The position numbers and the translations under genes were made by a program. Of a DNA stretch of 64,000 nucleotides, positions 7,584 to 53,857 are shown piece after piece. Below the pieces are notes generated by a model. That model did not search any database and had not been told where the DNA came from. It saw nothing but the letters and a program-made list of their open reading frames with translations. The stretch covers positions 1 to 64,000 of the forward strand of contig JAGPFF010000003.1 of assembly GCA_018056725.1 (NCBI GenBank), written 5' to 3'. Positions within the stretch are counted from its first letter, which is position 1. Each line of letters begins with the position of its first letter. The DNA comes from Anaerolineaceae bacterium (GTDB lineage: Bacteria > Chloroflexota > Anaerolineae > Anaerolineales > Anaerolineaceae).

Positions 7584-8162
7584 CTAAAGTTCTTTACGCA
7601 AGATGGGACGATTTTCACGGCGCGCGACCTCTTGGAATCCAAGACGGTAAAAGACTTCGACCTTACCGGGGAACAAACTGGTCGAACTGACGTGCTGCTC
7701 CACTTCCACCGGAAAGGCTTCCAACGTCTTTACCCCTTTGCTTCTGGCAGTTTCCACGGCTGCCTCGAGCAACTTTTCCATCAATCCCATGCGGCGATAA
7801 TCACGATGAATAAAAAAACAAGGCACCACCCAGACCGGTTGCTCATCCACCGCACCAAGATGTGCCGAAGCGGCGAGTCTTCGATAACGCTCTCTCGGTC
7901 CGAGCGCGATCCAGCCAGCGGGTTTACCATCTGCATAAGCGATCATGCCGGGTTCCCCGCCGGTTTGAACGAGCGTTCGCATTTCTTCTCGATGACCGTC
8001 TCTGCCCGCCTCTTTATACTCCTTGTTGGTCATGAGGAACCAGGCGCACCAGCAGCCGGCACAGGCGCCATTGGCACCAAATAATTGTTCAAAATCGTCC
8101 CAATTCTCCGGGGTAAGAGGTTTGAATTCCCAGGTTTGCACGAGTGTCTTCTTGTTCGCCAT
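7584..8162 (-). CDS. GNAT-family N-acetyltransferase
   Basis: 192 aa from the third in-frame ATG, chosen because an AAAGG sequence lies 7 bases upstream. Two earlier in-frame ATGs at 8177 and 8201 would add 5 or 13 residues. Motif A is VPCFFIHRDYRRMGLMEKLLEAAVETA. The N-terminus has a Cys/Trp-rich CAGCWCAWF (about 34-42), typical of a subfamily in which an aminoacyl or small-molecule substrate has not been fixed. It runs divergently from dnaN. Confidence 0.85.
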   Translation of the reverse strand: MANKKTLVQTWEFKPLTPENWDDFEQLFGANGACAGCWCAWFLMTNKEYKEAGRDGHREEMRTLVQTGGEPGMIAYADGKPAGWIALGPRERYRRLAASAHLGAVDEQPVWVVPCFFIHRDYRRMGLMEKLLEAAVETARSKGVKTLEAFPVEVEQHVSSTSLFPGKVEVFYRLGFQEVARRENRPILRKEL

Positions 8163-8264
8163 CTGTTTGCCTTTCATCCTTCCTGGTTTAACGGGTATCA
8201 CATCAATTCAATTGTACAGTACTCATCCTCCTTGTGATCACTGGTTTTTTTACCTTTCTCGTTG

Positions 8265-8270
8265 TATACT
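8265..8270 (+). promoter_or_regulatory. Possible -10 element for dnaN
   Basis: TATACT preceded by TG, 34 bases before the dnaN start. No good -35 hexamer is seen at 16-18 bases, so this is tentative. Confidence 0.4.
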
Positions 8271-8304
8271 CAAATCACAAATTTTTCTTAACGCGAGGGT
8301 GCTT

Positions 8305-9432
8305 ATGAAAGTCACTGTCACTCAGCAACATCTCGCTCACGGTCTGAGCATTGTCAGCCGGGCGGTTTCTCCGCGCAGCACCCTGCCGGTGCTTTCTAAT
8401 GTGCTGCTGGCAACGGATGAAGGGCGATTACGCCTTTCCGCCACCAATCTTGAACTGGGAATTACCTGTTGGATTCCCGCTAAAATTGAGGAGGAAGGGT
8501 CAATTACCATCCCGGCACGCACCATCGTTGATCTTGTAGGCACCTTTCCTCCGGATAATGTAGTGCTGGCGCTGGATGAACGCACCCAAACCCTGAATCT
8601 AGTCTGCAACGCTTCAGTGCATGATATCAAAGGGATTGATGCCCAGGATTTCCCTCCCATGCCGGTGTATGATCCCGAGGAGGGCGTTGAGCTCAATCTG
8701 GCTGATTTCAAAGATATGATCCAGCAAGTGGCTTTTGCGGCTTCTGCGGATGAAGCCCGCCCCGTCCTTCAGGGTGTCAAGATGGAGGTGATCGACAATC
8801 AGATCACCCTGGCTGCCACGGATGGCTTTCGGATTTCGGTACGCAAGGAAAACCTCTCCACACCAGTCCCCCAGGAGATTTCCATTATCATTCCCGCCCG
8901 CGCGATGAACGAACTTGCCCGCATTTTCAGTGATGTCGACAAATCCGTGCACATGATCGTCCCACCCAGCCGCGGTCAGGTAATTTTCCATCTCAAAGAT
9001 GCCGAGCTGGTTTCCCAGTTGATCGATGGGAATTTCCCCGATTACCGCGCAATTATTCCCAAGAGCGCAAAAACCAAAACCATCATTTCCACCCCCGCAT
9101 TTCTCAAAGCCTGCAAGCAGGCTGAAGTCATCGCGCGAGAAGGTAACAACGTCATCCGCCTCGACATTATGCCTGCGGAAGAAGGTCCGGGCAAAGTGGA
9201 GATCAACGCCCAAACTGAAGAGACCGGCAAGAGTGATATCTCGGTGGAAGCCAACATCGAGGGCAGCCCACTCCTCATTGCTTTCAACGTGCGCTTCCTG
9301 CGTGAAGTGCTGGACGTCATTCACTCCCCCAACGTGGCTCTCGAAACCAATGCCAATAATTCTCCGGGGGTCATCCGACCTGTGGGTGATGAAGATTTCG
9401 TTCATGTCATCATGCCCATGCACCTCGGCTGA
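8305..9432 (+). CDS. dnaN: DNA polymerase III subunit beta (sliding clamp)
   Basis: 375 aa, the standard clamp length, with three repeats of the clamp fold. Typical blocks are LSIVSRAVSPRSTLPVLSNVLL (N-terminal domain), AASADEARPVLQGVKMEV and ATDGFRISVRKE (middle), and LIDGNFPDYRAIIPK with a C-terminal HVIMPMHLG (the MPM/R-L end typical of clamps). The start at 8305 is set by homology. The frame runs open much further upstream without sense. dnaN is not next to dnaA here. It is a single gene followed by a GC-rich hairpin and is about 43.5 kb from the candidate origin. Confidence 0.97.
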   Translation: MKVTVTQQHLAHGLSIVSRAVSPRSTLPVLSNVLLATDEGRLRLSATNLELGITCWIPAKIEEEGSITIPARTIVDLVGTFPPDNVVLALDERTQTLNLVCNASVHDIKGIDAQDFPPMPVYDPEEGVELNLADFKDMIQQVAFAASADEARPVLQGVKMEVIDNQITLAATDGFRISVRKENLSTPVPQEISIIIPARAMNELARIFSDVDKSVHMIVPPSRGQVIFHLKDAELVSQLIDGNFPDYRAIIPKSAKTKTIISTPAFLKACKQAEVIAREGNNVIRLDIMPAEEGPGKVEINAQTEETGKSDISVEANIEGSPLLIAFNVRFLREVLDVIHSPNVALETNANNSPGVIRPVGDEDFVHVIMPMHLG

Positions 9433-50711: not shown

Positions 50712-50749
50712 TTTTTTGCGTCATTAATTCATGCCCCTCGAGGATGTCC

Positions 50750-51409
50750 ATGAAAAAATTTATTGCGGTGGCGGGTAACATTGGCGTTGGCAAATCCACG
50801 CTGGTAGAAATGATCAGCGTAAGACTGGATTGTCAGCCTTTTTTTGAACCAGTAGCTGAAAACCCTTATCTCGCAGATTTCTACCGGGATATGAAGACCT
50901 GGAGCTTTCATTCGCAAATCTTCTTTCTTACTCACCGCCTGCGCATTCATCAGGATCTGGTACGCGCCACCTGTTCGGTTATCCAGGACCGCAGCATCTA
51001 CGAAGACGCTGAAGTATTCGCTTACAACCTTTTTCTACAGGGGAACCTATCCGAACGCGATTACACCACTTATCGCTCTCTCTATCGCACTTTAGCCGAG
51101 TATCTGCCACCGCCTGACCTGGTAATTTACCTGCGGGCGTCGGTATCCACCCTGCTGCAGCGCATTGAACTGCGCAACCGGGATTATGAACGCAGCATCT
51201 CACCGGAATATCTGGAACAATTGAATCTGCTGTACGAAAACTGGATCCAGCACTTTACCCTCTGCCCGGTGCTGACGGTGCCGGCGGATGATCTGGATTA
51301 TGTGGCGCATCCGCGCCACCTGGAATTAATTATTTCCAAAGTGAAGGAAAAACTGACGGGGAAGGAAGAAGTCGTCTTTACCCGCGAAGAAGCCAATTCC
51401 ATCGAATAG
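50750..51409 (+). CDS. Deoxynucleoside kinase (dNK/dGK family), copy left of the origin
   Basis: 219 aa. The P-loop is GNIGVGKST (about 8-16); DRSIYEDA (about 80-87) carries the Asp-Arg-Ser motif; the lid is RIELRNRDYER. The family phosphorylates deoxynucleosides with ATP for dNTP salvage. The second ATG (50750) is used because GAGG lies six bases before it, while the first ATG touches that site. A second member of the family lies 1.8 kb away across the candidate origin; in Gram-positives such pairs have different base specificities. Confidence 0.93.
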   Translation: MKKFIAVAGNIGVGKSTLVEMISVRLDCQPFFEPVAENPYLADFYRDMKTWSFHSQIFFLTHRLRIHQDLVRATCSVIQDRSIYEDAEVFAYNLFLQGNLSERDYTTYRSLYRTLAEYLPPPDLVIYLRASVSTLLQRIELRNRDYERSISPEYLEQLNLLYENWIQHFTLCPVLTVPADDLDYVAHPRHLELIISKVKEKLTGKEEVVFTREEANSIE

Positions 51410-51457: not shown

Positions 51458-51724
51458 TCAGCTCTTGATGTCAACTACAAGCTTGATTGCTGTGCGGACT
51501 TTTCCTTCTATTTCCACATCAACGAATTCAGGCATACAGTAGATTGACAATCCATCCTCTGCGAGGTATCCCCTGGCCAATACCAGTGCTTTGACGGCTT
51601 GATTGACTGCTCCTGCTCCAATCGCCTGGATATCTGCGTGTTTATGCTCACGTATCACCCCGGCGATGGCGCCAGCAACTGCTGCGGTGCGCGAATTGGC
51701 TTTGACCTTAATGACATCTACCAT
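51458..51724 (-). CDS. spoVS: Stage V sporulation protein S (SpoVS)
   Basis: 88 aa, normal length. MVDVIKVKANSRTAAVAGAIAGVIREH, IQAIGAGAVNQAVKALVLARGYLA and the closing basic-hydrophobic strand are the Alba-like SpoVS fold. It is common in non-sporulating Chloroflexi and Thermus/Deinococcus, where it probably binds nucleic acid. It lies 115 bases from the triplet array of the candidate origin, and its promoter is directly beside it. Confidence 0.95.
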   Translation of the reverse strand: MVDVIKVKANSRTAAVAGAIAGVIREHKHADIQAIGAGAVNQAVKALVLARGYLAEDGLSIYCMPEFVDVEIEGKVRTAIKLVVDIKS

Positions 51725-51733
51725 AATGTTCTC

Positions 51734-51753
51734 CCTCCTGAAAGATTTTCAGG
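51734..51753 (-). promoter_or_regulatory. Hairpin overlapping the spoVS ribosome-binding site
   Basis: CCTGAAA-ATC-TTTCAGG in the leader; the 3' arm pairs with the first three bases of AGGAGG (51734-51739), 9 bases before the ATG. It could lower translation. Confidence 0.45.
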
Positions 51754-51794
51754 AATGTATGGCCAAATGGGGTAGTAAAATGCTCCTTTTTTTC

Positions 51795-51823
51795 ATTGTA
51801 CACATTCCACAGGGCAAATTCAA
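51795..51823 (-). promoter_or_regulatory. Promoter of spoVS
   Basis: On the minus strand TTGAAT (51818-51823), 17-base spacer, TACAAT (51795-51800). Confidence 0.75.
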
Positions 51824-51840
51824 GCCTGTGTTTGATGATC

Positions 51841-52205
51841 CCTCTTTATTCTCTTATTTGTTAATCAGTAGATAGTAGTCGTAGTAGGGGCTGTGCAAAA
51901 GTGGAGAAACAGAGCGAAAACGGGTCCAAGCACCAGATCTGGGGTGCCTTGTGCCATCTACACCCCGAATGTGGGGGATAGGGAGAGAGCCTTTCTCCCC
52001 GGTTGTATGTGCACCGTCTGTGGAAAAAAACAAAAAAGTTGAAAAACACCGCTTAGTTAAAAAACATGTGGAAAAGAGGGAGAAACTGCCAGTTTCTCCA
52101 CCGATTTTTTGGCTTTGTTTGTGGAGAAAAAGGGGATTTTGACATGCTTTATCCACAAAAAACAGCCAGTTATCCACAGGTTTCTAGAGAGTTGTGCACA
52201 AAATG
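51841..52205. other. oriC: Candidate chromosomal replication origin (oriC)
   Basis: A gene-free region between spoVS and a nucleotidyltransferase gene with strict TTWTNCACA DnaA-box matches at 51892-51900 (-), 52019-52027 (-), 52067-52075 (-), 52149-52157 (+) and 52170-52178 (+), plus near matches at 52120-52128 (-) and 52192-52200 (+). The three plus-strand boxes are 21 and 22 bases apart, two helical turns. The left edge is AT-rich (51841-51868) and is followed by TAG-type triplets. A-rich stretches lie at 52024-52066. The sequence is seen directly; that it is the active origin is inference. Confidence 0.85.
51869..51900 (-). promoter_or_regulatory. DnaA-trio array with GC spacer and DnaA box (basal unwinding element)
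   Basis: Reading the plus strand: TAG (51869), then in phase from 51873 TAG TAG TCG TAG TAG, then GGGC, then TGTGCAAAA (51892-51900, reverse complement TTTTGCACA). Box, GC spacer and trios stand in the order and orientation described for the bacterial oriC unwinding element, next to an AT-rich flank. Confidence 0.75.
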
Positions 52206-52217
52206 GGGAAAATGACG

Positions 52218-53210
52218 CTATGCCGAAAGCCGCTCGCAGGTCTCCTCAACGCTGTCGAGCAGATGGTCGAGCTCTTCCAGGCGTGTGGGAAGGTGCTTCG
52301 AATCCAATTCCAGTTGTTTGCCAACCTCCTGCCAGTCCTTGAAAGACTGTTCGCTGTGGGGCAGGCAGGCAGCGGCGCGCGTCCAGGTATAGTAAAGCAG
52401 CCAGACTGCCCCCGCCGGGTTGGCAGGGTAGAGGGCGCGAATCGCCTTTTCGTAGTAGGCACGCCTGAAAGGTTGCAGCGAGGGTGGCAGCTCCTCCACG
52501 TTCTTGAGGGCATCAAACATCAGGTGATAGGCGTCCAGCCAGGCGTTGAAATTCTCATCATTTATCGCGTCGCTGGTGAAAAGCGGGATGAAGTCGGCAC
52601 TGAAGTCGTGCAAATCGGCGGCTTCAGCCCGGCTTGGAAGCTCGTGCACCAGACGGCGCTCTGCCAGCGGTGCGCCGGTGAGGCAGGCGACGGCGTTGGC
52701 GGTATTGCGCAGCGCAGTCAGATAAGCAGAAGCCCGTTTAATCCCCTGAGGGATGGATTCTTCCGTCAGATCCAGCCAGGTCTTGCGCGCCGGCACAAGA
52801 AACGTGTTGATGCGCGCGGCGACATTCTCCATTTTCCAAAATTGGGCGGTGGCTGATGCGCGGGTAAAATCATACCAGCGCAAGGAATCAAATAAGACAA
52901 GCGGGACCTTTTCAAGCCAACCGCCGAGCCAGGCATCGGTGCGCAACTTCCGCGGCGGTTCAAACTCTTCCTGCTCGTAATGCGCCACGTCCAAGGTAAT
53001 CTCCGGACTGAGACGGATCACCTCGCGCCGCACCTTTACCGCCCGGCTATGTACGCACACCAGATCAATATCCGTGATACCGCCAATAAAGGGATCTTCA
53101 TCAAGCAGCGAGCCAGTGACATACACGCAAATGATGCTGCGGTCTTTGGAGGTCAATAATTGGGTGTTTTCACGCGCCTGGTTGAGAAGTATTTCACGGG
53201 TGATGCGCAA
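52218..53210 (-). CDS. Nucleotidyltransferase-fold protein of unknown substrate
   Basis: 330 aa. VYVTGSLLDEDPFIGGITDIDLVCVH (about 29-54) is the pol-beta-type nucleotidyltransferase GS-x-x-D-x-D signature, and ITLDVAHYEQEEF (about 71-83) supplies a third acidic residue. The C-terminal 200 residues are helical, with no named domain, as in aminoglycoside-adenylyltransferase-like and MNT-like proteins. It lies 11 bases from the second deoxynucleoside kinase gene, likely the same transcript, and its stop is close to the last DnaA box of the origin. Confidence 0.75.
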   Translation of the reverse strand: MRITREILLNQARENTQLLTSKDRSIICVYVTGSLLDEDPFIGGITDIDLVCVHSRAVKVRREVIRLSPEITLDVAHYEQEEFEPPRKLRTDAWLGGWLEKVPLVLFDSLRWYDFTRASATAQFWKMENVAARINTFLVPARKTWLDLTEESIPQGIKRASAYLTALRNTANAVACLTGAPLAERRLVHELPSRAEAADLHDFSADFIPLFTSDAINDENFNAWLDAYHLMFDALKNVEELPPSLQPFRRAYYEKAIRALYPANPAGAVWLLYYTWTRAAACLPHSEQSFKDWQEVGKQLELDSKHLPTRLEELDHLLDSVEETCERLSA

Positions 53211-53221
53211 GGGAACCTCGC

Positions 53222-53857
53222 TTATTGAATAGGCAGTTTAGGTTGGTAAGGCGCCAACTGTAATTCTTCGCGGATACGGTTGCAGATGAACTCCAAATCT
53301 TCAGGATGTTCCACGAAGTTGAGGGTATCGGTTTCGATGGTGAGTACATTGGTTAGATGAGGCGAATTGAAATAGAAGGAATCGTATGCCCGGTTGACAA
53401 GATCAATGTATTCGCGGTCCATCTGACGTTCGTATGGGCGGTCCCGCATGGCAATGCGCTTCATGAGGACGTCCGTTGAAGCGCGCAAGTACACCACCAG
53501 GTCAGGAGCAAGAATCTTTTCCGCCAGGGCTTCCTGTACCTTATAGTACATATCCAGTTCATCGCCATGCAGGTTGATTTGGGCGAAGAGCCGGTCTTTT
53601 TCGAAGGTGTAGTCGCTGATCAGCGCCTTTACCTGGCTCAAGCGGTCTCCGATATTACGGCGTTGCTGGTGGTAACGGCTGAGCAGGAAGAAAATTTGTG
53701 TTTGAAACGCATAACGAGCCCGATCGGCGTAAAAGTTACTAAGGAAGGGGTTTTCTTCGAAGACTTCGAGCACTAATTCAGCCTCGAAGTGGGGTTGCAG
53801 CAGACGGGCGAGAGTGGTTTTGCCGACTCCGATCACGCCCTCGATTGCGAAATACAT
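53222..53857 (-). CDS. Deoxynucleoside kinase, copy right of the origin
   Basis: 211 aa. The P-loop is GVIGVGKTT (about 7-15). The nucleoside region is SDYTFEKDRLFA, where the DRS motif of the other copy is replaced. The lid is RIAMRDRPYERQMD. Similar size and fold to the protein at 50750 but divergent, suggesting a different base preference. It is upstream of the nucleotidyltransferase in one transcript. Confidence 0.9.
   Translation of the reverse strand: MYFAIEGVIGVGKTTLARLLQPHFEAELVLEVFEENPFLSNFYADRARYAFQTQIFFLLSRYHQQRRNIGDRLSQVKALISDYTFEKDRLFAQINLHGDELDMYYKVQEALAEKILAPDLVVYLRASTDVLMKRIAMRDRPYERQMDREYIDLVNRAYDSFYFNSPHLTNVLTIETDTLNFVEHPEDLEFICNRIREELQLAPYQPKLPIQ

Follow-up and report, generated by a model that had tools for sequence, protein, structure and literature searches.

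A probable chromosome origin distant from dnaA in an uncultured Anaerolineaceae bacterium carries candidate operators of the nucleotide sensor NrdR

The non-coding spacer between spoVS and a conserved 330-aa gene is very probably the site where an uncultured Anaerolineaceae bacterium starts to copy its chromosome, far from the usual marker gene dnaA. The same spacer carries what look like binding sites for NrdR, the protein that senses the supply of DNA building blocks, which suggests a direct link between that supply and the start of replication. We analysed a stretch of 64,000 nucleotides (the window; GenBank assembly GCA_018056725.1, contig JAGPFF010000003.1), which belongs to an 82.9-kb contig of a 2.14-Mb draft genome with 90 contigs and 89% completeness. 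The coordinates of the individual elements are summarised in Table 1.

A first-pass annotation of the window had proposed an oriC not next to dnaA or dnaN, based on five strict TTWTNCACA matches, three plus-strand boxes spaced 21-22 bp apart and AT-rich stretches in gene-free DNA. Our analysis confirmed this observation and supports its interpretation. The five strict DnaA boxes lie within 287 bp, and a sixth box with one mismatch, TTGTGCACA, extends the tandem array, the plus-strand boxes being 21 and 22 bp apart. In 5000 dinucleotide shuffles of the 490-bp spacer the mean number of boxes was 0.10 (maximum 3) and none reached five; similarly, no 300-bp stretch of 300 shuffled whole windows contained five boxes. 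The window as a whole is not enriched (8 boxes, 4.7 expected), so it is the clustering that matters. As stated in the annotation, dnaN is about 43 kb away and dnaA is not in the window; it was found on another contig (C5) of the same assembly with no strict box within 1.5 kb. The spacer is free of genes; a minus-strand open reading frame of 107 aa within it gave a long match in only one close relative (35% over 102 aa) and was rejected as a gene.

Table 1. Elements of the proposed origin and neighbouring features (positions within the window)
Feature	Position	Strand	Sequence or remark
Proposed oriC, non-coding spacer	51728-52217		
AT-rich duplex-unwinding element	51845-51874		least stable 30-mer of the spacer, among the least stable 0.08% of the window
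DnaA-trios, in phase	51873-51887	+	TAG-TAG-TCG-TAG-TAG
GC-rich spacer between trios and box	51888-51891	+	GGGC
Unwinding-module DnaA box	51892-51900	-	TTTTGCACA (TGTGCAAAA on +), followed by a weak second box GTGGAGAAA
NrdR-box-like palindrome 1	51929-51946		AGCACCAGATCTGGGGTG, score 7.6
NrdR-box-like palindrome 2	51961-51978		CACCCCGAATGTGGGGGA, score 10.1
DnaA box	52019-52027	-	TTTTCCACA
DnaA box	52067-52075	-	TTTTCCACA
Distal tandem DnaA box 1	52149-52157	+	TTATCCACA
Distal tandem DnaA box 2	52170-52178	+	TTATCCACA
Distal tandem DnaA box 3	52192-52200	+	TTGTGCACA (one mismatch)
spoVS	51464-51724	-	PF04232, E 6.7e-35
Putative spoVS -10 element	51795-51800	-	TACAAT
Open reading frame, rejected as a gene	51854-52177	-	107 aa
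Conserved gene of unknown family, 3' end faces the origin	52218-53210	-	330 aa, no Pfam hit
Deoxynucleoside kinase gene	50744-51409		
Deoxynucleoside kinase gene	53222-53857		
dnaN	8023-9432		

To analyse the conservation of this region we used the 330-aa gene as an anchor. The gene was detected in 35 of 41 relatives, and 59 loci were retrieved from GTDB genomes, mostly Anaerolineaceae and Anaerolineales, including Bellilinea, Levilinea and Leptolinea. Of the 58 loci analysed plus the window, 51 have at least two strict boxes in the 560 bp next to the gene, and 44 of these 51 keep the tandem pair at 20-22 bp, which was found in none of the shuffles. Genus and family relatives differ strongly in the sequence of the spacer but keep the boxes. 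Eight of the 59 loci lack the cluster; the gene is therefore not an infallible marker.

The first-pass annotation had missed an unwinding module at the left side of the boxes. Here the relatives share AT-rich DNA, TAG/TCG trinucleotides, a G-rich spacer and two abutting boxes (TGTGGAWAT-GTGGATAA). Two regular expressions for trios, GG and tandem boxes detected the module in 22 and 31 of the 51 loci, compared with 0.1 in shuffles (0.12 for the latter), and an alignment of 12 genus members showed corresponding TAG/TCG trios. This arrangement has been described for the basal unwinding system (BUS), where a DnaA box lies within 16 bp of a run of trios (PMC8287927); in Bacillus subtilis a GC-rich 5-mer is found between them (PMC10316083). 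The published criterion asks for three consecutive NAN triplets. In the window the trios lie 4 bp from the box, but the TCG interrupts the run and leaves two consecutive NAN triplets next to the box and two beyond the TCG, so that the criterion is fulfilled in spirit only; several relatives have an uninterrupted run, e.g. TAG-TAA-TAG-TAG in the locus L050.

The polarity of replication was examined in the complete chromosome of Leptolinea sp. HRD-7 (AP024710.1). The orthologous cluster at 1,036,303-1,036,485 is the only close group of TTATCCACA on this chromosome, and among all 32 TTATCCACA sites of the own draft genome only the pair described here is close together. Forty 20-kb samples of the HRD-7 chromosome gave a two-arm skew pattern with a fitted minimum at 0.96-1.04 Mb (95% profile); none of 200 shuffles fitted as well, and dnaA at 0.704 Mb was rejected as the minimum with a likelihood-ratio statistic of 11.5. 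In the same genus, the 491-kb contig of one genome (G012) changes from mostly negative to mostly positive skew at the cluster (187 kb), while its dnaA (411 kb) sits deep in the positive arm, and a second genome (G004) also changes sign at its cluster. On the own 82.9-kb contig, however, the signal is weak and not decisive, as the cumulative G-C reaches -1079 at 52 kb and a slightly lower value of -1139 at 82.5 kb. dnaN is linked to the origin at roughly 9-43 kb in five genomes, whereas dnaA is unlinked (224 kb in G012, 332 kb in HRD-7). Around dnaA only 0-2 strict boxes were found in 3.5 kb in eight genomes, i.e. the own genome and seven relatives, and thus no denser cluster lies beside dnaA in these genomes. 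A complete genome of another family in the order (G035) keeps an orthologue of the 330-aa gene but has no cluster there; instead, four TTATCCACA on the same strand were found in 230 bp at another locus (C1:150326-150559), beside neither dnaA, dnaN nor spoVS. The origin may have moved within the order, but the sampled skew of this genome was noisy and we did not use it as support.

A k-mer comparison of the spacers with shuffles revealed, besides DnaA boxes, a second conserved element, CCCATATA/ATATGGGG, which was likewise not seen in the first-pass annotation. The full palindrome CCCC-ATATAT-GGGG is present in 18 of 50 spacers but only 3 times in 768 kb of flanking DNA. Searches of whole genomes detected its only copy in the own genome about 335 bp upstream of dnaA (CCCATATATAGGG, at position 2929 of C5:38501-44500), so dnaA is a likely NrdR target. 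In Bellilinea, the copies found with this pattern were two in the origin, one upstream of dnaA and one more. That one, and others like it, lie upstream of nrdR, and in one genome (locus L192) upstream of an adenosylcobalamin-type ribonucleotide reductase (RNR) gene; NrdR was confirmed by TIGR00244. Nearly every one of 22 genomes has a strong box upstream of nrdR, and where this was checked the RNR gene follows nrdR directly in six of seven genomes. The palindrome CCCCATATATGGGG is the operator of the nrdR-RNR operon in this family. In the own genome, NrdR is encoded at C88:21382-21819 (TIGR00244, 164.6 bits) and the RNR gene lies downstream of nrdR at C88:19441-21039; there is no RNR gene beside the origin.

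The strict palindrome CCC-ATAT-GGG is absent from the window. We therefore built a matrix from the nrdR promoters only. At a threshold giving 20 hits in 1.58 Mb of background, this matrix detected boxes in 36 of 59 origin spacers (35 of 57 sequence clusters), compared with 0.96 on average in shuffled spacers (maximum 5) and at most 27 with 300 column-permuted matrices. Boxes were also found 234-372 bp upstream of dnaA in 9 of 10 distinct genomes, including the own genome (score 16.3). In HRD-7 the 12-bp core occurs only upstream of dnaA and of nrdR, and its origin copy is weaker (7.5). The two boxes of the window are degenerate and individually weak, and three genus members (L036, L043, L044) have no clear box; however, the pair in the window scores 17.7 together, which was reached once in 1.58 Mb. 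Its two boxes are 32 bp apart, within the peak of 29-32 bp seen across spacers, although many relatives instead have boxes 135-170 bp apart. Box 2 aligns with strong boxes in relatives, and the centres of the pair sit 53 and 85 bp after the start of the last trio, which is the register of the relatives (52-53 and 82-84 bp). Across relatives the box centre most often lies 43, 53-55, 62-63, 74 or 83 bp from the distal DnaA pair, about one helical turn per step. This phasing (Rayleigh p about 0.003 on distinct values) is suggestive only, as the loci are related and ten loci with larger distances were left out.

Taken together, we propose with high confidence that the spacer is a DnaA-dependent oriC, in which DnaA binds the distal tandem boxes and the box beside the trios, extends a filament over the trios and opens the AT-rich element as in the B. 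subtilis basal unwinding system. DnaA binding and unwinding are inferred by homology. Compared with B. subtilis oriC (PMC6669920, PMC8287927), which also has a distal box region that may act through a loop, the proposed origin is not next to dnaA, its distal subregion is a 21-22 bp tandem array of TTATCCACA-type boxes and it contains the NrdR-type boxes. As in Escherichia coli, the origin is separated from dnaA-dnaN by other genes; its neighbours are different, dnaA and dnaN are unlinked and the unwinding module is of the trio type. An oriC away from dnaA is already known from several other bacteria. The spacer between spoVS and the 330-aa gene provides a sequence-level oriC for a large, mostly uncultured family that searches centred on dnaA would miss. 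We found no published account of an oriC in Anaerolineaceae or Chloroflexi, of SpoVS with oriC or of NrdR with oriC in the papers searched, leaving aside the entries of DoriC and of Rodionov and Gelfand 2005; a 2016 paper citing the latter states that nrdR is found clustered with replication genes including dnaA.

In other species, NrdR tetramers bind DNA only with ATP plus dATP, need two boxes about three turns apart with a C and a G nine bases apart, and kink the DNA by nearly 90 degrees at each box (PMC9110341, PMC12051234). Both boxes of the window keep this C and G (CCAGATCTGG, CCGAATGTGG). Compared with the operator pair of Streptomyces coelicolor nrdRJ (PMC9110341), they are located inside the proposed oriC rather than at an RNR promoter and have GC-rich flanks. 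The NrdR assignment rests on motif identity, position and recurrence, which are strong at the family level and moderate for this species, in which binding of NrdR to the origin appears likely. In B. subtilis the distal DnaA-box region acts on the unwinding module, probably through a loop (PMC6669920), and we infer that dATP-loaded NrdR, bound between the two, kinks the DNA and changes that loop. NrdR would thereby act as a gate, most likely a brake when dATP is in excess, together with its site upstream of dnaA. A brake fits its role as a repressor, its site upstream of dnaA and the report that raised dNTPs delay S-phase entry in Caulobacter (PMC12186491), but a helper role is not excluded. 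It is somewhat more likely than not that in Anaerolineaceae the deoxynucleotide pool directly gates initiation through one regulon (RNR, dnaA, oriC), a coupling usually thought of as indirect.

The cluster might alternatively be a DnaA reservoir or regulatory cluster comparable to datA or DARS, with the true oriC lying elsewhere. Box clusters away from dnaA appear to serve such roles in E. coli, and the weak skew of the own contig would allow for it. In view of the unwinding module, the skew minimum and the unique cluster in HRD-7, and the lack of a rival cluster near dnaA in the genomes examined, we consider this very unlikely.

With regard to the palindromes, they could be an operator for spoVS or an unannotated transcript without a role in replication, since NrdR classically acts at promoters and the boxes lie upstream of spoVS, about 205-254 bp from its start codon in the window. 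However, the distance to the spoVS start varies from 190 to 498 bp, while the boxes keep a few offsets to the unwinding module (52-53, 82-84 or 181-226 bp) and, in most loci, to the distal DnaA pair. Boxes also occur in loci where no spoVS start was recognised, and the putative spoVS -10 element is about 130-180 bp from the boxes, on the other side of the unwinding element. This reading remains possible but is unlikely. Another factor sharing the NrdR-like motif might also bind the palindrome, and a few strong copies in Bellilinea (genome G018, contigs C14 and C2) have unclear contexts. This appears less probable still, as the matrix comes from nrdR promoters alone, the 12-bp core occurs only upstream of dnaA and of nrdR in HRD-7, and the pair spacing and the C and G nine bases apart fit the solved NrdR-DNA complex (PMC9110341, PMC12051234). 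Extra palindrome hits in G018 and a further genome (G022) have no clear target gene; two of the G018 boxes (positions 2487 and 2518 of C14:32001-38000) are exactly 31 bp apart upstream of an unidentified short open reading frame and may represent a further NrdR target.

A second TTATCCACA pair 21 bp apart was detected in another genome (G024, C9:182758 and 182779) about 29 kb from the origin, which is possibly a DnaA reservoir or a DnaA-regulated gene. The 330-aa protein shows invariant G33-S34 and D47-I-D49 (GS...DxD), which look like a nucleotidyltransferase active site. The two deoxynucleoside kinase genes lie on either side of the origin, each about 0.3-1 kb beyond the spacer, which is notable next to candidate operators of a dNTP sensor.
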